Shown: positions 3,591 to 32,460 of the stretch, piece by piece
How the letters are laid out: each line of letters begins with the position of its first letter
Position numbering within the stretch: position 1 is the first letter of the stretch
Translations under genes and position numbers: made by a program
Assembly (NCBI GenBank): GCA_027596035.1
Contig: JADGJA010000159.1
Coordinates: forward strand, 1 to 35,375
Length of the DNA stretch: 35,375 nucleotides
From: Thoreauomyces humboldtii
Lineage: Eukaryota; Chytridiomycota; Chytridiomycetes; Spizellomycetales; Powellomycetaceae
Reading direction: 5' to 3'
Notes under the pieces: model-generated
Seen by the model: the letters and a program-made list of their open reading frames with translations, nothing else
Told to the model about the DNA's origin: nothing
The model's database searches: none

Positions 3591-6500
3591 CTAATGTAGT
3601 GCTGCAAACACACCGGGGAAGGTGGGAAGGTCCTGTCCCGCGGGATTGCTGGCCATCAGGGTCCATAGGTCCTGGACAGCTCCAGCTGCAGGCGCGCCTG
3701 CTTGTCGCTTTTCGAGCCTCTCTGGGTCATCACCGTCATCGCGCTTGCGCCTGGTACTGAGCCCGACGTCACCCACGCCGAGCGAGTTCATGGAGGTGTC
3801 GACCGGGATTCCGCGCTTGCAGCGATCAAAGTCCGCTTGGAAGTACTCTGCAAATCCCGAAGCGATGTTTAGGACAATGAGCGAGAGAAAAGGCGAGAGA
3901 GGGAGAAGGGTGGCTCACGAGAAGATGCATCTTGGCAGTTGTCGCTGTCGATGTTCCCCCACGTCCCGTCGTTCCCGCACTGCCTCGTCGAGTCCCCTCC
4001 AAACGGACACGGGAGACTCGCCAGGGCACCCGCCTTGGTGCTCGGCCATGTGCCATCACCATTGCAAACGCTGCCGCTGCCCAGGCCGGACCCAACGTTC
4101 GAGTTGCCAAACACGGCCATCATGAGCAGACCCGACGGATCCAGGTCCGTCGACCACGCGCTGACGCCCGACAGACACTGCGCGTCCGCGATCTGCATCT
4201 TGGTCGTGATGGTCTGAGGCGTCTCGTAGGTGATCCACTGCGATCCGATCACCACCGACGCGGCGTTGGAGGTGCTGTCGACGGTCTCGGTCGCGCCAGC
4301 GGCGGTCGAGAGGGCCTTGATCTCGTTGTACGAGAGGAAGCCCGGAGTGTTGGTGCAGACTCCCGGGGCACCTGGACCCGTGAAGGAACAGCCGACGTTC
4401 GCGCACGAGCTAGAGGCGAGCTGGTAGTTGCGTCCGTAGAAGGCGATCCCCATCACGAGCTTGGTCCGCCTGACCCCGGCCTTCAGAAAGACCTGGATGG
4501 CTTGGTTCATGCTGTCAACGGTGGTTAGAGGCTGGACGCCGTTCGCCGTCGGCCACGAGTCTGGAGAGACGTCGCTGTAACCGCCGGCAACGGCCACGGT
4601 CTGAGCAGCGGCTCCTCCGCCTCCTCCACCGCCAGTGATGACGAGGTCATACGTCTTGAAGTTCATCCTTTAAAGTCCAATGGTCAGACTCCGGCGGACG
4701 TGCTGGACGTTCATGTGGAAGCTCACCAGTCAACATAGTCCTGCAGGTCCTTGAGTGCGTAATCGTTGATTTTGGACATGTCGGCCGGGATGGTCACGGA
4801 AACGAGCAGGTGGGAGTTTGACGAGGTTATGGCTTGGTTGAGCTCCTTGAAGAACTGAACATAGTTGGCTGCGTCCGTGGGCTGACCACCACGGTCTGGA
4901 CCTGGATGAGTATGCATAAACACATCATTCAGTGCGAACGCCGTTAAAGCGCATGCCGCGGAGGTTTCGTACCAGGGTATTCCCAGTCAAAATCTACACC
5001 GTCGAATCCCTTCGCAGGGACGGTTGTCAAGATGTCGGAAATGAGCTTCGCCCTGTTGCCCGGGCTCGTGACCATGTTCGAGAACCTAGTCTCGGTGCCC
5101 GATCCGGGAGTGTTGAAGGCCCAGCCTCCAATGGACCACATGGTCTTGAGCGCCGTGTTGGACGTCTTCAAACCGTTGAAGGTCTTGATCTGGGCGTCGT
5201 CCTGCCCGCTGGTGGTCGCCAGGGTGAAGCCGGGGGAGATTGCGCCAAAGGTATACACGAGGTGAGTGACGCCTGTCGTGCGGATCTGGTCGGGTGCGAG
5301 CGAGGGGAGCACGCCCTTGCAGTTGGGCAGGTTGGCGCCACGATTGGCAGCGCTGTTGGAATAGTACGCGACCACCCGGGTGAGTGCCTGCGGGTTCGCC
5401 GTCGCGCAGTTGCCAGGAGCGGGAAAGTCCGAGAGACTGTTGCAGTTGGACTGACATCCCTCACCGCAGAAATCCTGGCCCACTCCGCACATCCCATAAG
5501 CGGAACAGCATTGCCCGTTGGGGCACGTGGCTCCCTGAGCATCCTTTCCGCACTGTGCGGACGGGCAGAACGTGACCTGGAATGGTGTTTCATGTGAGCT
5601 TCTTGCCTCCGGAACCAGATATCTGCAAACCCACACTTGCTAACCCTGTAGTCGGCATCCCTGCAGTTGAAGGTGGAAGATAGGTCGTCAAACTGCCACG
5701 AGTAGGCATCGGGACACTTGTCCTTGAAGACCTGGTCGTAACGAGTCGGCCAGTCGCCTTGACTTTGCACGGACGGCCAGGTGACCGAGTCGCAGACCTT
5801 GCCGACGGCTTCGGGCCGCACGTCGTGCTTGGAGTAGCCAAAGTTGGGGGCGACGCAGCCGAGAAGCTCCCGCATGCTCTCGTCGTTGAACCAGCCCATC
5901 AGAGGGTTCGGATTGTAGGTTCGCTGGATGAGGTCCTCGACGGCGTCGTGGATGGATCCGCAGGCGATGGTTCTCTTGCGGTCGTCGCTCTTGAACGAGA
6001 GTTCCACGGGGCAGTTCCTCTGGATGTCCATGCGGCAGGAAGGATTGCCGCAGTCAAAGTTCGGGGGAGTCCCTTGGGGATCGTTCATCTTTGTGCCCTT
6101 GATGACCTCGATCTGGATGTCGAGCGTGTGACCGTCGACCTGGCTGAGGTCGTAGTAGTCCTTGTTGCCCCAGCCGGCCAGAGTGAACTCGGCGATCGTG
6201 TACGGCGGGATCCCTCCGTTCCCTTGACACGCTACTCCGTAATTGTTTTCTGGAATGCCGCAGGTTCCCGTCTCGCAGAAGACCTTGGGATGGCAAGAGT
6301 GGGGATCAGAACGTAAACACGCGCAAGATGGTCTCGGCATGGATGGAGGCCGAGGAGTGGGCGGTTCGCGCTCCATGAAGAAGTCTGGCTCGCTTCGCTC
6401 GCATTTGGGTCGCGCCATGAAGGGAACCTGGGCTCGCTTCGCTCGCATTTTGGAATGGGCGCGCTTCGCGCGCCGTGAGGGAACTTGGGCTCGCTTCGCT

Positions 6501-7152
6501 CGCATTTGGGTCGCGCCATGAAGGAACCTGGGCTCGCTTCGCTCGCCATCTTGGACTGGGCGCGCTTCGCGCGCCGTAAAGGAACCTGGGCTCGCTTCGC
6601 TCGCCCTTTTTCTTTTTTTACCTTGCCATTGTTCAGCTTGCAGTTCGTCCTCCCCCAGACCCTCCCCGAGATCCAGTTCCATGGGATGGCGACGTTGGCG
6701 AGGGAGCCAGGAGCCAGACCGAAGCCGCCGTCGGCCGGCACGGGGGCGTCCTTTGCGCCCTGGATGGCGGGCCAGACCTTGTAGGCACACTTGTTGACGA
6801 TCTGCATCTGCTTGGTGAGGCCGGTCCAACCGGGGGTGTCGAGGTTGGTGATGGGAGCCGTGTAGACGTCGGCATCGGGGTCCTCTGCGCGGTAGCCCGG
6901 CCCTTGGACGAGCAGGGGCGACCCATCCGGGGCCTTCATACAGTGGTACTCTCCCTTGTCAGGATCGATGCAGGCCACGCCGCAGGTGACCTGAGTGGGG
7001 AGACAGTCGCGCCTGACAAGGCCAGAAGAAGAAGTCGAGTTGGCTGCTCCGACGACATTGTCAGCGGCTGTGGCAGAGAAGCACGTCAAAAGGAGGGCCA
7101 GAGCGATGGCAAGCCAGGTGGTGGTGCCACGAGATGTCCAAGGATCCGCCAT
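3591..7152 (-). CDS. secreted thaumatin-CBM18-GH18 chitinase fusion
   Basis: Exons (minus) 7152-6622, 6283-5645, 5576-4973, 4901-4727, 4667-3919, 3847-3591 give 984 residues, all junctions in phase. A signal peptide comes first (hydrophobic core at residues 12-28). From about 115 to 395 lies a thaumatin-like domain: NKCAYKVWPA, GRVWGRTNC, FCETGTCG, PPYTIAEFTL and the closing ADYRVTFCP, the last spanning the second splice. A hevein-type CBM18 follows at once (about 396-435, CCSAYGMCG). GH18 begins near 450; the catalytic motif DGVDFDWE at about 583-590 keeps the acidic Glu, so it should cleave chitin. The strand after the fifth junction reads MNFKTYDL and then a run of Gly in place of the usual YHG. 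About 855-897 is a small Cys/Trp module (PCP ... RQCGNDGTWGNID). The tail has dibasic sites (RRKR, EKRQ) suited to Kex2-type cleavage. Intron 1 (6621-6284) is unusually long and repeat-filled. It is divergent from another chitin-binding gene. Exon 6 is the least certain. Confidence 0.85.
6284..6621 (-). repeat. 338-nt intron filled with GC-rich mirror and hairpin repeats
   Basis: Intron 1 of the chitinase fusion. On the plus strand it contains five copies of gctcgcttcgctcgc (starting near 6389, 6432, 6488, 6532, 6589) alternating with two perfect hairpins ggcgcgc-ttc-gcgcgcc (near 6458 and 6558) and spacers such as gggtcgcgccatgaagg and gaacctggg. In the sense of the gene the hairpin loops read GAA. 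The other introns of this gene are 68-74 nt, so the repeats explain the extra length. The frame stays open through part of the array, which could mislead gene callers. Confidence 0.8.
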
Positions 7153-23126: not shown

Positions 23127-24795
23127 TCAAAAGCTGACACGGTTCAACTCGTCAAGAGCGAGGGCCAGCTCTTCGATGGTCATGTCATCCACGAACGTCG
23201 CAGCGCCTATCCCGCGCATCAAGGGAGTCCGCTGGAATCCACCTCGTCCAGCTGTAATGTCCTCGAGTGCCTTTGCACAGCACGCGATGTCCAAGCTCGG
23301 ATGCGAGGTCGCGAGTCCAAGGCCCTGCATCAGACGCAACGTGCGACAGGCGTCCTTGTCCGAAAGCAGACCACGTCTACGAGCGATGACGGTGGTGAAA
23401 GCCATGTCGATGCACACGGCTTCTCCATGAAGAAGCGACATGTCCGTCCCCAGAGCAGCCATCTCAAGACATGGGGAGAAGGAGTGACCGTAGTCAACGA
23501 TGCGGCGAAGGTTGAACTCGTGGAGATTCGGCTAAAATGAAAGCAAAAGCGAATGGTAAGGCAAGGGGGATTTCTCCGCTTGCTCGATCGCACTTCTTAC
23601 CTCAAGCTCTTCGAGCATGCCTTGAATCGCCCTGCGCATGATCTCTTCGCCTCCGTACAGGTAAGCGTCGCCCCGCGTCGTCCGAGGATGTTGGACCATT
23701 TCCTCCATGAGTTCAAAGAGCCGCGCGTCCTTGATGCACGCCATCTTTGCGATCTCGGCTGATCCGTTTCGGATGTGTCGCTCCGGAAGCGTGGCGAGAA
23801 AGCTGGTGTCGACGAACACGGCCAGCGGAGCGCAATAGGTTCCGATCTTGTTCTTTCCGCCGTTGAGATTGCATGCTGTTTTGACGCCGACGGCCGCATC
23901 CACCATCCCAATGAGAGTCGTGGGAACCTGGAAATATTGGGCACCTTGAGCGATCGGATATCAAAGAGGACGGGAACCAGGACATACAGATGGGTGGTTA
24001 CCTTGATGATGGGCGTCCCTCGCCTGTACAAGTTTGCGGCCATGGCGCTCAAGTCCAGACTGACACCTCCACCGATGGCGAGGATCGGTTCTCTCCTCCT
24101 GTCAATGTTGCACTTCTGCATGGTGGTGCAAGCGGCGAGGACCTGGTTCCAGTCTTTGTTAGCTTCGTCCGGAGTGATGAGGTGGATGATGACCTGGACG
24201 CCATGATGGGCAAAGTATCTGTCGATTTTGTTTCGGTAGAGCTCGTACACCGTGGAGTCAATAAGGACAAGCCGCCGCTGTGGACCTGCACGAGCGGCTT
24301 CCGATGTTGAGTAAGCACTGAGGATGGGTGGAAACACTGAGTCGTTCATGGTACGTAGGAGGGATGTGTTGTCCTCGTCGAAGATCCGAGGTGTGATCTC
24401 GACAGTATATCGCATGGGCATCCACTCTTCGACCGTGAAAAGACCCTGTTCGATTCTGTTTGTCAGCCAAGGAAAGGAGAAGAGTGAATTGGGTTCTGCA
24501 TTGTTCGAAAGCTTACCGAGTCTAGTCCAGTCAATCCGCTTCCGTTCAATCCATTCAAACCCACACGGTTGCACTCGGAAGGGGACTTGCGCTTGCTCTC
24601 GGAAACTGTGATCGCGCTGTCGCGCCGAGGCTCTCGAGACGAGTACAGAGGTCCGTCCATGCTGCCGCTCCGGCTGCTTCTCGGGATGGTCATGGTATCG
24701 CTGTCGGCGGTGGCGGTGATATCGTCTTGGACCGGCAGTTGCTGGGGGCTGTCCATCAACACATTGAGAGGGAAGGTCGACGCTGCAAAGGTCAT
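23127..24795 (-). CDS. sugar-phosphate cyclase (EEVS/DDGS type, DHQ synthase fold)
   Basis: Exons (minus) 24795-24517, 24445-24002, 23927-23601, 23531-23127 give 484 residues, all joins in phase 0. Residues 1-93 are a poorly conserved Ser/Asp-rich tail. The rest follows the dehydroquinate synthase fold: ILAIGGGVSLDL (NAD binding, about 213-224), RRGTPIIKVPTTLIGMVDAA across a splice, VGVKTACN and KNKIGTY, FLATLPERHIRNGSAEIAKM, DYGHSFSP (about 363-370) and LHGEAV (about 383-388, metal ligand). The form VGVKT with KN-IGTY and HSFSP, rather than the GGKTGVN of true dehydroquinate synthases, places it with cyclases that act on sedoheptulose 7-phosphate: 2-epi-5-epi-valiolone synthase or desmethyl-4-deoxygadusol synthase. 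It would make the cyclitol core of gadusol or mycosporines in the cytosol. Its divergent neighbour is the methyltransferase-dehydrogenase expected for the next steps. EEVS versus DDGS cannot be settled here. Confidence 0.85.
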
Positions 24796-25608
24796 CGTAT
24801 GTTCTCAAGTTGTTCCTTCGGTGTGGGTTGCTTGTGGGCTCTTTGGTATTGACAAGGTGCTGCTGGAACGGTTTGGAAGAAGCAAGCAGGCAAGATGAAG
24901 CAGAGCCATGGTTATTATTTGGCACGAATTTTCCGACAAATCTCCATACTATCCAGGGTCGACGAGGTGCAAGCGAGGGTGGAGATTATCCCACATGCAG
25001 ACGTCGCACGACGTTTTCGACCTCATGGGACCTCTTTTGACCCACATGCAGGTGGTTTTTCCATCCTTCAGCATGCGGGGGAATGTGAACATCCCCAGTC
25101 GCGAGAAGTGTGCAGGACGGCGTCTGGGGTTAACGGGCCTTAAGGGGGGAGACATTTGGACAGCAACATCCCATAACGCCAGCAGCCAAAGGGGCGTCAT
25201 GCCGTCCCGCGCATTTAATTTCCGCAGGCTCCCTTCCCTAATAACTCTCTCTCATCTTTCTCCATCTCGATCTGGTGCAACCCGCAAGATGAATGGATGC
25301 ATGAAATATATGCTCGAGAGAGAAACAGATAAGAAAGAGGAAAGCCCAAGGGGCCCAGGCACTGTTCCCGAACTTCTGGGTCCCGGGTCCTTGGTACGGG
25401 AGCGAGCGGCGATCATGACTCATCTCCTTTTGTTTTTCCCCCCCGCGCACCACTCACAGAAGATCTCTCTGTCTCTCTGTCTTGAAGCACACCCTTATAT
25501 CTAGTGCCAGCCGCTCTTGTTCAGCGCCCCCCCATCTGACAAGACCCTTCCCAGCTGCCATTCTTTTACCCGCACTTCCTCGCTCTTGATCATACACACT
25601 ACACCCGG
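24796..25608. promoter_or_regulatory. divergent promoter of cyclase and methyltransferase-SDR
   Basis: 813 nt separate the two start codons. A TATA-like ccttatatct lies near 25492-25501, about 110 nt before the methyltransferase ATG. The part 25050-25230 recurs in shortened form at about 28790-28910. Short open frames inside are not gene-like. Coregulation of the two genes is inferred from their arrangement and linked biochemistry. Confidence 0.5.
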
Positions 25609-28090
25609 ATGACCGTGCAAGACTCAAATTCAGGCAAGGCTTCCTTGCTCCTTCCCGACGGCCGCGTCGCCGACACACCGCTCGAGGTCATCGGCTGTCT
25701 CCTTCGTCAGAGCCTCTCGGCACGCGGCCACGATGCAGACATCCAAAGGGCCCTGGACATGGTCGTCGGAATCGATCAGTACACCGCAACGGTTTCGACG
25801 CCCGTGAGCCAAGCTGTCGCACGTCAGGTGGACGCCACCATGAAGGTCGATTGGGACTGCCTTTACGAAGCGGTAAGGGAGGCAAAGGAGATGAACCTCG
25901 AGCGAGGTTAGGACTTGTCTTTCCTGCGCGCGGAGCGCGCACCTCCAAAGCGAGCGCTAGCGAGCGACCCCAAGCGCCCCGCGAAGCGGGGGCCTCCATC
26001 TTTATCGTCCTGCGCGCGGAGCGCGACCAAAGCGAGCCTTGGCGAGCAATCAAAAGGCTCCGCGAAGCGGGGCCTCGATTTACCCCGCCCCGAAGCGAGG
26101 ACGTGTCTTCCTGCGCGCGAAGCGCGCACACAAGCGAGCGCCAGCGAGCGTATCCAACGCTTTTTAGTTTTTTACGTCCTGATGCTGTGATCCTTGTGAT
26201 CCTCATCCTTCACGTCCACCTCTCCCATGTCCCATCCATGAGACAGAATGCTGATGGTCAACCTTACCGACGATCTCTTCCAGGGCAAGACCACGTTCCG
26301 GCAGACAGCCAACTGCTGTGCGGGAAGCTTCGAAGCGGCCTTCGTGTCGTCCATGGCGCAGGCCACGCGCGCCGTCCGAGTCCTGGAGATCGGCTCCTTC
26401 ACCGGAACGACCACCATGGCCGTCGCGGAAGCTCTCCCAGAAGGTGGAAAGGTTGGGGTCTTCTCTGTTTTTGGTCTTACCGCAATGCCATTTTTTCCTT
26501 ACGGAACTTTTTCACACCGTCTGTAAGGTCTACACTCTCGAGATCGAGCCTTACCTTCGACAAATGTGCCAGGATGCATTCGACGCAGCAAAGCTGACCC
26601 ACAAGATCGAGATCCTGCTAGGCGATGCAAACGAGAGTCTGGCAAAGCTCGCTCAGGAAGGATTGGCCTTTGACCTCATCTTCATCGATGCGGACAAGAC
26701 CGGTTACAAACGCTATTTCGACACCATCATGGAGCAAGGACTTTTGGCTCCGAGCGGAACTCTGTTGGTCGACAACACCTTGTTCAAGGTAAGCGTTGAA
26801 CTATTTAGCTCGCGGCATCGACATTTCTCGTTTGCGTCCTGCTAACATGCACTGTCGAAGGGTAGGTTCTTGGTCAATCAACCTGTCGAGGACGAGAGTT
26901 CGGAAGCTCTGCGCGTCTTCAACGAGCATGTGCTGAATGACTCTCGGGTGAACGTCGTCGTTCTGCCCATCCGTGATGGCGTCAGCATGATCACACGGAG
27001 AAGGTACGGCACCGTGTACGAGGACTCTTTCCTGTTTACCAATTGACACCAATCCACCGCATGCAGATCCCGCGCCCCGGCAGCAGCGGATGCCGTAGCT
27101 CGCGACGGTCTGGACGTGCTACAGCGTCTGAGCCTTGGAGGCAAAGTAGCCCTCGTCACAGGTGGGTTATGAGTTCAAGCTTTGAGGATCTCGCAGCGAC
27201 GAGTCATCCTGATAATACTCTACATTCAGGCGCTGGTCAAGGAATCGGACGAGCATTCGCACACGCGCTTGGAGAGGCTGGTGCCGCGGTCGCTGTTGTC
27301 GATATATCCCAAACGACAGCCCGAGCTGTCGCCGATGAGCTCAAGTTGAAGGGTATTCGAAGCATAGCGTTAGTGGCGGATGTCACGAAACGGGCAGATT
27401 CTGATAGGTAAGAACTTCGACTACTTCGCGCCGATGAACTTCTCGGTTCTAACCTTGCCTCTTGTGTTCTTGCAGGATGGTACAGGATACGATTACCAAG
27501 TGGGGCCACCTGGATATTGCCATCAACAACGCCGGCGTCAACTTCAACTCGGCTGCCGAGGACATCACCGATGCGCAGTGGGATACGACGTTCGCTGTCA
27601 ACACGAAAGGTGTGCTTTACTGCTGCCAAGCAGAAGCGAAGCACATGCTCGAATCCCGCCGTCCTTGCTCCATAATCAATACCGCCAGCATGGCAACGCT
27701 GCTCGTTCCCCATCCGCAAAAACAAGCTGCCTACAATGCGAGTAAAGCCGCCGTCGTAAAGCTGACCGAGAGTTTGGCAGTCGAATGGGCCGAGAGAGGG
27801 ATCCGGGTCAATGCCATCAGTCCTGGAATCGTTAACACAGCTCTCATCACGGTAAGGGTCGTCGGGCTACCTAACCCGTCAAGGCATTCGCCGCAACTCA
27901 CTTTTTCCGATGATCACAGGAGAACCCGGACCTCAAACCTCTTGTCAAAACGTGGCTCTCTCAGATCCCTCTGGGCCGGCTTGCTGAGGTGACGGACTTG
28001 CAGGCTGCTGTCGTGTACCTTGCTTCCGATGCGAGCGCATACATGACGGGCCAGAACATCGGGATTGAGGGCGGCCAGTCGATCATTTGA
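25609..28090 (+). CDS. O-methyltransferase / SDR dehydrogenase fusion (MT-Ox-like)
   Basis: Exons 25609-25872, 26284-26451, 26528-26788, 26861-27003, 27067-27161, 27230-27407, 27476-27851, 27920-28090 give 551 residues, every join in phase. Residues about 1-280 are a class I SAM O-methyltransferase of the catechol/caffeoyl-CoA type: [15 protein letters not shown] (SAM loop), [21 protein letters not shown] (metal and substrate site) and [14 protein letters not shown]. After a short linker, residues about 300-551 are a classical short-chain dehydrogenase: [15 protein letters not shown] (the Gly motif crosses a splice), INNAGV, YNASK (catalytic Tyr and Lys) and VNAISPGIV. The order methyltransferase then oxidoreductase on one chain parallels the MT-Ox enzyme that converts the EEVS product to gadusol in fish. 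Divergence from the cyclase supports the same pathway. Intron 1 (25873-26283, 411 nt) is repeat-filled. A second donor at 25913 is possible but gives no in-phase join. Confidence 0.87.
25873..26283 (+). repeat. 411-nt intron carrying GC-rich hairpin repeats
   Basis: Intron 1 of the methyltransferase-SDR gene. From about 25925 to 26150 it holds perfect or near-perfect short hairpins: tgcgcgc-gga-gcgcgca (near 25926), ccccgc-gaa-gcgggg (near 25977), a tgcgcgcggagcgcg copy (near 26010), ccgcgaagcgg (near 26070) and tgcgcgc-gaa-gcgcgca (near 26111). Mirror-type words such as gcgagcgctagcgagcg lie between them. In the sense of the gene they share GAA/GGA loops with the array in the chitinase intron. 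The other introns of this gene are 63-76 nt. Confidence 0.8.
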
Positions 28091-28333
28091 ACCATATTTT
28101 CAGTCAGCACTCCACTTTCCTTTGCACCATCTCTAAATGTACTATTCTCTCTTCGCAAGCATTTCGTCGAAGGTCCGCACTTTGCGGATGCCAAATCGTT
28201 GGATTTGTATATTCTCCCATACGTCGTCACACGGTCGAGCGGCCCGTCCATGAGAACGATGCAGGCGATTCAATAGTCGCTTCCATCGCGATCACGACAT
28301 CCCTGGAAGATAACAAATCGGCCTCACGCCCGA

Positions 28334-28788
28334 TCAACCCTTCTTTGGCGGCCTGATCGCGACCGGACGTGCGACCCAGTCGATGGTCTGACCGGCGCCC
28401 GTGGTCAACGCCACATCCTCAGGCCCATCCGCCATGCGCTGATCGGCGTCTACACCCTCGAACAGAGAACCCGAGAGGAACGTATGAGGAAACCCATGGT
28501 CGAACGGATTCGCCTTCTCGATCTCCATCTCGTCCTCGGTCAGGTTAACCGCCAGACCGTCGATGCTGCCCTGAACGTTACCAACCTTACGGATCGGACA
28601 CACGTACGGGCTGTCTGGAGGCAGTAAATCAGGGCGACTTGCCTTGGGCTCGCACCTTTTGCGGGCTGCGCCGTTCAGGCCGATACCTTCCTGTCGCCCG
28701 TGGACGTGGGGATGTAAGATGCGTCCGGCAGGTTCCTTCTCCTCTGCCTCAAAGGTGTACCATGGGGATGATGTCCCGCTTAAAGTCT
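28334..28788 (-). pseudogene. relic of an Aad-type aldo-keto reductase
   Basis: The minus strand keeps the C-terminal part of an aldo-keto reductase: VQGSIDGLAVNLTEDE, then FPHTFLSGSLFEG and RPVAIRPPKKG before the stop. It is nearly the same as the gene at 31930-32690. Upstream of this tail the copy is scrambled by small deletions and frameshifts, and the family's central motifs (VVYQGMWN, APYG-L) are lost. Homology stops at about 28788, where unrelated promoter-like DNA is joined. It is non-functional as it stands. Confidence 0.8.
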
Positions 28789-28789
28789 T

Positions 28790-28910
28790 TTTTCCATCCT
28801 TCAGCATGAGGGGGAATGAGTATCCAGTCGTCAGAAGTGGGCAGGACGGACATTTGGACAGCGTCGTGCCGTCCCGCGCTCTTCCTGAACATGTGTGCGT
28901 GGCAAGTCCC
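28790..28910. repeat. fragment of the cyclase/methyltransferase promoter
   Basis: The DNA ttccatccttcagcatg, then ggggaatg, gcaggacgg, gacatttggacagc and gccgtcccgcgc occurs in the same order and orientation as in 25055-25215, with several internal deletions. The fragment is joined directly to the relic reductase. Confidence 0.75.
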
Positions 28911-31535: not shown

Positions 31536-31690
31536 TCAATTTTTCCGATGATCACAGGAATACCCGGACCTCAAACCTCTTGTCAAAACGTGGCTCTCTC
31601 AGATCCCCCTCGGCCGACTTGCTGAGATAACGGACCTGCAGGCTGCTTCCAGACCATCGGGATCGACGGCGGCCAGTCAATCGTTTGAAC
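31536..31690 (+). pseudogene. truncated copy of the last SDR exon
   Basis: The DNA corresponds to exon 8 of the methyltransferase-SDR gene with its acceptor (gatcacag). It has a changed first codon (aat for gag), several silent-type changes and a deletion of about 43 nt removing the residues around [12 protein letters not shown]. The tail and stop (QSIV, then tga) remain. No upstream exons are present, so it cannot be expressed as an enzyme. Confidence 0.8.
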
Positions 31691-32460
31691 CATTTTTTCA
31701 GTCAGCACTCCACTTTCCTTTGCACCATCTCTAAATGTAGTATTCTCTCTTCGCAAGCAATTCGTCGAAGGTCCGCACTTTGCGGATGCCAAATCGTTGG
31801 ATTTGTATATTCTCCCATACGTCGTCACACTTCGAGCGGCCCGTCCATGAGAACGATGCAGTTGAGTCAACAGTCGCTTCCATCGCGATGACAACCTCCC
31901 CGGAAGATACAAATCCGCTTCACGCCCGATCAACCCTTCTTTGGCGGCCTGATCGCGACCGGACGTGCGACCGAGTCGATGGTCTGACCGGCGCCCTTGG
32001 TCAACGCCACGTCCTCAGACCCATCCGTCATGCGCTGATTGGCGTCTGCACCCTCGAACAGAAATCCCGAGAGGAACGTGTGAGGGAACACATGGTTTAA
32101 CGGATAGGCCTTCTCGATCTCGGCTACCTCGTCCTCGGTGAGGTCCACCGCCAGGCCGTCGATGCTGCTCTGAACGTGACCGACCTTCCTCCCTCCTACG
32201 ATCGGGAACACGTACGGGGCCTTCTGTAGGCAGTAGGCGAGGGCGACCTGGATGAGCTCGCAGTCCTTGTGGGATGCGACGTCTTCCAGGACGGCCGACA
32301 CCTTCCTGTCGCGCGTCGACGTGGGGATGAAGGTGCGTCCAGCGGGTTCCTTGTCCCGTGCCTCGAAGCCGGCCCTGGTCTGGAAGCGTCCCTGGTTGAG
32401 CACGCCGTAGGGCGCGAGGCCTATCCCCTCGGCGTGGACCATGGGGATGATGTCCCGCTC
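31536..32460. repeat. segmental duplication, copy 2 (SDR relic plus reductase)
   Basis: Partner of 27901-28788. The shared non-coding 3' flank (for example from cagtcagcactccactttcc to tcccatacgtcgtcacac) is almost unchanged, which suggests a fairly recent event or gene conversion. Confidence 0.85.

Follow-up and report, generated by a model that had tools for sequence, protein, structure and literature searches.

Do some fungi make the sunscreen gadusol in the same way as fish? This question is raised by a stretch of 35,375 bases from the chytrid Thoreauomyces humboldtii (order Spizellomycetales), hereafter the window, in which the gene of a sugar-phosphate cyclase lies beside a single gene encoding a fusion of O-methyltransferase and short-chain dehydrogenase (SDR), referred to as MT-Ox. 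In the available portions of the literature drawn on (PMC4426668, PMC10057719, PMC7826186, PMC5133447), a gadusol route consisting of 2-epi-5-epi-valiolone synthase (EEVS) and MT-Ox is described for animals (PMC4426668) and proposed for algae (PMC7826186), and the sunscreens of fungi are mycosporines produced via the cyclase DDGS. A fungal EEVS and MT-Ox pair was not reported among the papers listed by literature searches; as most subscription papers were outside that search, priority is not established. By the sequence comparisons presented here, it is well supported that the gadusol route of animals and algae has a fungal member in this pair, the cyclase of which differs in its active site, and we consider it probable that cyclase and MT-Ox form a fungal gadusol module.

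A divergent gene pair for cyclase and MT-Ox

The pair had been noticed in a first-pass annotation of the window and was confirmed. The cyclase gene has four exons on the minus strand, with its start codon at 24795 and its stop codon ending at 23127, and the motifs VGVKT, KNKIGTY and HSFSP named in that annotation were all found within this one gene. MT-Ox is encoded on the plus strand by one spliced gene of eight exons, ending at 28090. The splice models agree with the head-to-head arrangement that had been claimed, the two start codons being 813 nt apart (Table 1), and the region in between may allow co-regulation of both genes. All ten introns of the pair are of the GT-AG type. The spliced cyclase has a length of 484 amino acids, of which the deposited HKX48_002137 represents residues 14-484, and the spliced MT-Ox of 576 amino acids is 100% identical to the deposited HKX48_002138.

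The deposited MT-Ox model appears to require one correction. It contains 25 residues after DWDCLYE that are absent from all 20 other aligned sequences. Use of better splice sites for intron 1, a GTAAGG donor at 25873 and a CCAG acceptor ending at 26283, removes these residues in frame and results in a protein of 551 amino acids. Intron 1 harbors GC-rich short repeats (25910-26150) with three further matches in the genome, all on contig C202, and these repeats may have misled the gene finder that produced the deposited model.

MT-Ox is homologous to the zebrafish enzyme over its full length

Pfam analysis identified Methyltransf_3 (4.9e-38) followed by adh_short_C2 (6e-61) in MT-Ox. The protein shares 49% identity over 550 columns with zebrafish MT-Ox zgc:113054 (residues 19-550 versus 5-550), demonstrating full-length homology, and for the methyltransferase half the identity is likewise 49% (266 columns). 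The same half together with part of the N-terminal extension is 40% identical to cyanobacterial MysB over 237 columns. Seven positions across both domains, which we take to be catalytic, are identical in 8/8 and 25/25 rows of the alignments. The DADK and VDNTLFK motifs of exon 3 are presumably involved in metal binding, and the Asn, Ser, Tyr and Lys residues of the SDR domain in exon 7 are assumed to be catalytic. Among solved structures, 3awd, a putative polyol dehydrogenase, is the best match to the SDR half, a similarity that suits a predicted cyclitol substrate.

As an exon 8 relic and the truncated tail of an aldo/keto reductase gene indicate rearrangement nearby, the fusion might be an annotation artefact of two neighboring genes, or the pair might be decaying. 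However, splicing proceeds in frame through a linker exon, whereas intron 4 read unspliced leads into a stop codon, and no ATG occurs from this stop to the SDR exon in the SDR frame, making it unlikely that methyltransferase and SDR are two separate genes. In addition, PF01596 and PF00106 were both present in each of the 120 relatives listed of 607 (the window protein among them), with a query coverage of at least 92% in 118 of these, indicating that the fusion is not due to chance. With the expected catalytic residues also intact, artefact or decay is scarcely credible.

The fusion is kept from chytrids to fish, as determined by homologue searches and alignment. Named fungal carriers are Fimicolochytrium jonesii (mean pLDDT of 85.5 for the predicted structure of its fusion), Rhizophlyctis rosea (two entries), Saitoella coloradoensis, Savitreella phatthalungensis and Protomyces lactucae-debilis. 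A profile search based on eight MT-Ox sequences (seven fungal, one metagenomic) identified no additional named fungus among the best 120 of 734 matches; neither this list nor that of 120 of 607 shows absence from other taxa. In a tree of 30 MT-Ox rows, the chytrid sequences grouped with support values of 100/99 and those of Taphrinomycotina, together with two metagenomic rows, with 100/98; both joined at 96/95, so that the fungal proteins, representing three genera of chytrids and three of Taphrinomycotina, form one group. Fish, Artemia and two metagenomic rows formed another group (100/100). The tree of the SDR half recovered animals at 100/100 and fungi at 90/79. The best methyltransferase tree placed the animal domain beside MysB (94/94), but a single clade of the 30 fused methyltransferase rows was not rejected against it (p-AU 0.284). 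A viral carrier of the fusion was not found, as none of the 153 IMG/VR stretches matching a search pattern encoded a relative.

Two further observations concern the spread of the fusion. The Artemia sequence (P0242, from the brine shrimp Artemia franciscana) is a fusion of 549 amino acids encoded on a 51-Mb contig, and isolation of gadusol from Artemia has been reported according to a title cited in an eLife reference list, so that the shrimp may produce it de novo. The metagenomic sequences P0029, P0109, P0044 and P0024 are fused proteins that belong to none of the named groups (algal, fungal or animal), and some of them have long branches.

An EEVS-like cyclase with a deviating active site

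In the cyclase, Pfam analysis identified DHQ_synthase (1.1e-32) and DHQS_C (7.3e-22). By sequence as well as by predicted fold (mean pLDDT of 84.0 for the deposited protein), the best match was the bacterial EEVS ValA (4P53), followed by DDGS and then DHQS, with DDGS only 2 Z units behind ValA in the fold comparison. A tree of 49 rows was calculated without animal (including fish) EEVS and without fungal DDGS, in which ValA and CETA_ACTSX are named EEVS in their sources and all other rows with this label received it by similarity. A grouping with DHQS, which the first-pass annotation had named as refuting its proposal, was not found: the four DHQS rows split off from the window cyclase at 100/100. 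The only second DHQ_synthase match in the genome is a locus on contig C139 with DHQS in an open frame of 1693 amino acids, as in AROM, and with the organism thus possessing its own DHQS, this identity was rejected. DDGS was rejected as well, as the 12 DDGS rows, all bacterial, formed a 100/100 group that excludes the window cyclase. The latter grouped with Fimicolochytrium (98/92), Rhizophlyctis (97/82) and a metagenomic row (100/96) and, further outward, with Saitoella and Savitreella (94/97) and green algae (87/99). Thus, although the tree rules out a place among DHQS or DDGS, it is by itself no proof of EEVS, and the cyclase is classed here as EEVS-like.

Active-site positions were compared in ValA numbering (chain position less 6, a shift derived by comparing match ends), using discriminating columns chosen from 14 bacterial EEVS versus 12 DDGS. 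Among 21 such columns, the window cyclase has the EEVS letter in 15, the DDGS letter in four and neither in two; with a stricter column threshold, it has the EEVS letter in 13 of 17. Its state at Asp281 is EEVS-like, this position and His360 being, as we assume, the two published sites that distinguish the cyclases. Asp363 of the window cyclase is present in all of the 120 cyclase rows listed.

A number of findings weigh against an EEVS function in a common module with MT-Ox. Gly445 of the window cyclase occupies the site of ValA His360, a position with His in bacterial EEVS but Thr in DDGS. In the list of 120, the 42 cyclases nearest to that of the window (P0121-P0162, its own included) all lack His at this site, whereas 76 of the 78 further ones (P0163-P0240) have it; the list was divided where the first row with a bacterial name occurs, with fungi and algae among the first 42. 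At ValA Gly173, the window cyclase has Ala, as do DDGS, and Ala occurs in 18/18 eukaryote-like rows. In the tree, the EEVS-labelled rows do not lie on one side of a branch, the label requiring three changes, and 12 bacterial EEVS are placed with the long branch of DDGS (93/95), separately from the fungal-algal group (87/99). Furthermore, no Protomyces cyclase occurs among the 120 rows listed, and the Rhizophlyctis entries carry cyclase and MT-Ox on contigs that differ in length. The cyclase departs from the bacterial EEVS at, among others, ValA 173 and 360, a difference on which the first-pass annotation had been silent. With Gly at the latter site and His missing from all of the 42 nearest relatives listed, the product of the cyclase is not certain.

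The missing His360, the conserved Ala173 and the position of the fungal-algal group apart from ValA may indicate that these enzymes are sedoheptulose 7-phosphate cyclases of a class of their own, yielding another stereoisomer or a related cyclitol, and that the product of the fusion is gadusol-like rather than gadusol. However, MT-Ox is homologous from end to end to the zebrafish enzyme that accepts 2-epi-5-epi-valiolone (EEV), and the cyclase is EEVS-like at 15 of the 21 columns and at Asp281. Osborn, in 2017 work on the spread of C7-cyclitol synthases, is also said to have identified two true EEVS within a clade that lies at equal distance from EEVS and DDGS. We therefore regard a separate class as possible but rather unlikely. 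It is similarly doubtful, and would be the boldest reading, that the cyclases of fungi and green algae, with Ala173 and no His360, form a third functional class that, together with MT-Ox, makes a new gadusol-type sunscreen in chytrids and early ascomycetes, by a route that Fungi have retained from a time before these lineages diverged.

Mycosporine genes in the genome

The genome (20.67 Mb in 823 contigs) was checked for mycosporine genes, as the first-pass annotation had suggested; no MysC-type ligase and no DDGS were found, and genes resembling nonribosomal peptide synthetases for mycosporines were not searched for. A cyanobacterial MysC query remained without a match in this genome even at an E threshold of 1 but matched 3/3 control genomes; these controls are bacterial, so that a diverged ligase split by introns could be missed. 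No separate MysB was identified, the MysB query matching only two exons of the MT-Ox fusion (43% identity), which indicates that a cyanobacterial query can detect a homologue exon by exon in this genome. PF13535 had no match in the genome, and the sole PF02655 match was located on another contig, in an open reading frame (ORF) named biotin-carboxylase-like from its sequence, in agreement with the earlier statement that the window contains no ATP-grasp ligase. PF07478 had seven matches on contigs C40, C492, C60 and C801, the place on C60 being the biotin-carboxylase-like ORF.

These results bear on two alternatives. Gadusol might be only an intermediate to which a ligase encoded elsewhere adds an amino acid, resulting in a gadusol-core mycosporine as proposed for the green algae Klebsormidium nitens, C. 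zofingiensis and Coccomyxa subellipsoidea. There, the same two genes adjoin genes for an additional O-methyltransferase and a MysC-like ligase (PMC7826186), neither of which was found in the chytrid; as in the window cyclase, His is missing at ValA 360 in the named cyclases of algae. As the MysC query detected nothing here despite its success in the controls, and the PF13535 and PF02655 searches pointed to no candidate, we consider such a conjugate improbable. Alternatively, the pair might belong to an ordinary fungal mycosporine route, in which the cyclase is a DDGS, the methyltransferase yields 4-deoxygadusol and the SDR acts on something else. In Phaffia rhodozyma, the DDGS gene is likewise divergent from those of a separate O-methyltransferase (OMT) and an ATP-grasp ligase (ATPG) (PMC10057719), a cluster with a sunscreen product, as would also apply to the chytrid, and DDGS ranks second, at a small distance, among the solved relatives of the window cyclase. 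However, the window cyclase stays outside the group of bacterial DDGS, the only ones in the tree, has GHSFSP where the Phaffia DDGS has GHTWSP (PMC10057719), and is not accompanied by any ligase that the MysC query could detect. This route is hence highly improbable.

Proposed gadusol route

In the gadusol module that we favor, the cyclase would convert sedoheptulose 7-phosphate into EEV with NAD+ and a metal ion. The SDR domain of MT-Ox would then oxidise a ring hydroxyl of EEV with NAD+, and the methyltransferase domain would O-methylate the resulting enol with S-adenosylmethionine to yield gadusol. As no MysC ligase was found, the route probably ends, as in fish, with free gadusol rather than an amino-acid conjugate, and this product may protect the fungus from UV radiation. 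A gadusol-type route by a methyltransferase-SDR fusion, in place of the usual mycosporine genes, had been suggested by the first-pass annotation and is supported by the full-length homology to zebrafish MT-Ox and by the lack of DDGS and MysC matches, with gadusol as the predicted product.

The arrangement resembles that of vertebrates (zebrafish LOC100003999 and zgc:113054) in the neighboring cyclase and full-length fusion genes and in that no ligase was found. It differs in its fungal host, in the head-to-head orientation at a distance of 813 nt, and in a cyclase without the His360 that animal EEVS presumably share. In the cyanobacterial mysA-mysB-mysC system, MysB is homologous to the methyltransferase half with part of the N-terminal extension but is a separate protein, DDGS takes the place of EEVS, and a ligase is present. 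ValA remains the nearest solved structure of the cyclase and shares Asp281, but the chytrid enzyme has Gly for His360 and Ala for Gly173.

Other features of the window

Table 1. Gene models of the cyclase and MT-Ox pair and related features (window positions)
Feature	Position	Strand	Content and basis
Cyclase exon 1	24517..24795	-	Start codon at 24795; deposited protein begins 13 codons further in; splice model and offset versus P0121
Cyclase exon 2	24002..24445	-	NAD-binding region; splice model, PF01761
Cyclase exon 3	23601..23927	-	VGVKT, KNKIGTY; splice model
Cyclase exon 4 and stop	23127..23531	-	GHSFSP, LLHGEAV; splice model
Intergenic region, candidate shared promoter	24796..25608		813 nt, computed; putative promoter function
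MT-Ox exon 1	25609..25872	+	N-terminal extension, revised 3' end; GTAAGG donor, homologue alignment
MT-Ox intron 1	25873..26283	+	411 nt; GC-rich short repeats at about 25910-26150
MT-Ox exon 2	26284..26451	+	Methyltransferase start, revised 5' end; CCAG acceptor
MT-Ox exon 3	26528..26788	+	DADK, VDNTLFK motifs; splice model
MT-Ox exon 4	26861..27003	+	Methyltransferase end; splice model
MT-Ox exon 5	27067..27161	+	Linker and start of SDR NAD-binding motif; splice model
MT-Ox exon 6	27230..27407	+	SDR; splice model
MT-Ox exon 7	27476..27851	+	SDR Asn, Ser, Tyr, Lys as invariant columns; splice model and alignments
MT-Ox exon 8 and stop	27920..28090	+	Splice model
Relic of MT-Ox exon 8, truncated	31558..31685	+	Within segmental duplication

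The end of the MT-Ox gene is part of a segmental duplication (27898-28754 versus 31536-32368, 83% identity over 877 columns). In the lower copy, MT-Ox exon 8 itself is accompanied by the truncated tail of a reductase, and the upper copy contains the truncated exon 8 relic next to an aldo/keto reductase ORF on the minus strand; carboxylesterase exons are located between the two. The aldo/keto reductase may be an old neighbor of the pathway. In addition, a 65-column stretch of the intergenic region (25056-25120) recurs with 83% identity at 28789-28849, next to the truncated reductase tail. Elsewhere in the window, thaumatin-like ORFs occupy the minus strand at 5168-7152 and contain a short internal tandem repeat (6361-6604; overlapping self-match of 145 columns with 90% identity and a shift of about 100 nt).

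Implications for gadusol synthesis in fungi

By 2015, Aureococcus and Coccomyxa were the only non-vertebrates in which MT-Ox had been found, and algae were proposed as the source of the animal gadusol genes (PMC4426668). If the pair works like its homologues, some fungi make gadusol the fish way, and zoosporic fungi and Taphrinomycotina would join the short list of gadusol makers. The question of where the animal gadusol genes originated would then become sharper. The natural set of cyclases without the active-site His would be useful to find what sets the product of a sedoheptulose 7-phosphate cyclase.

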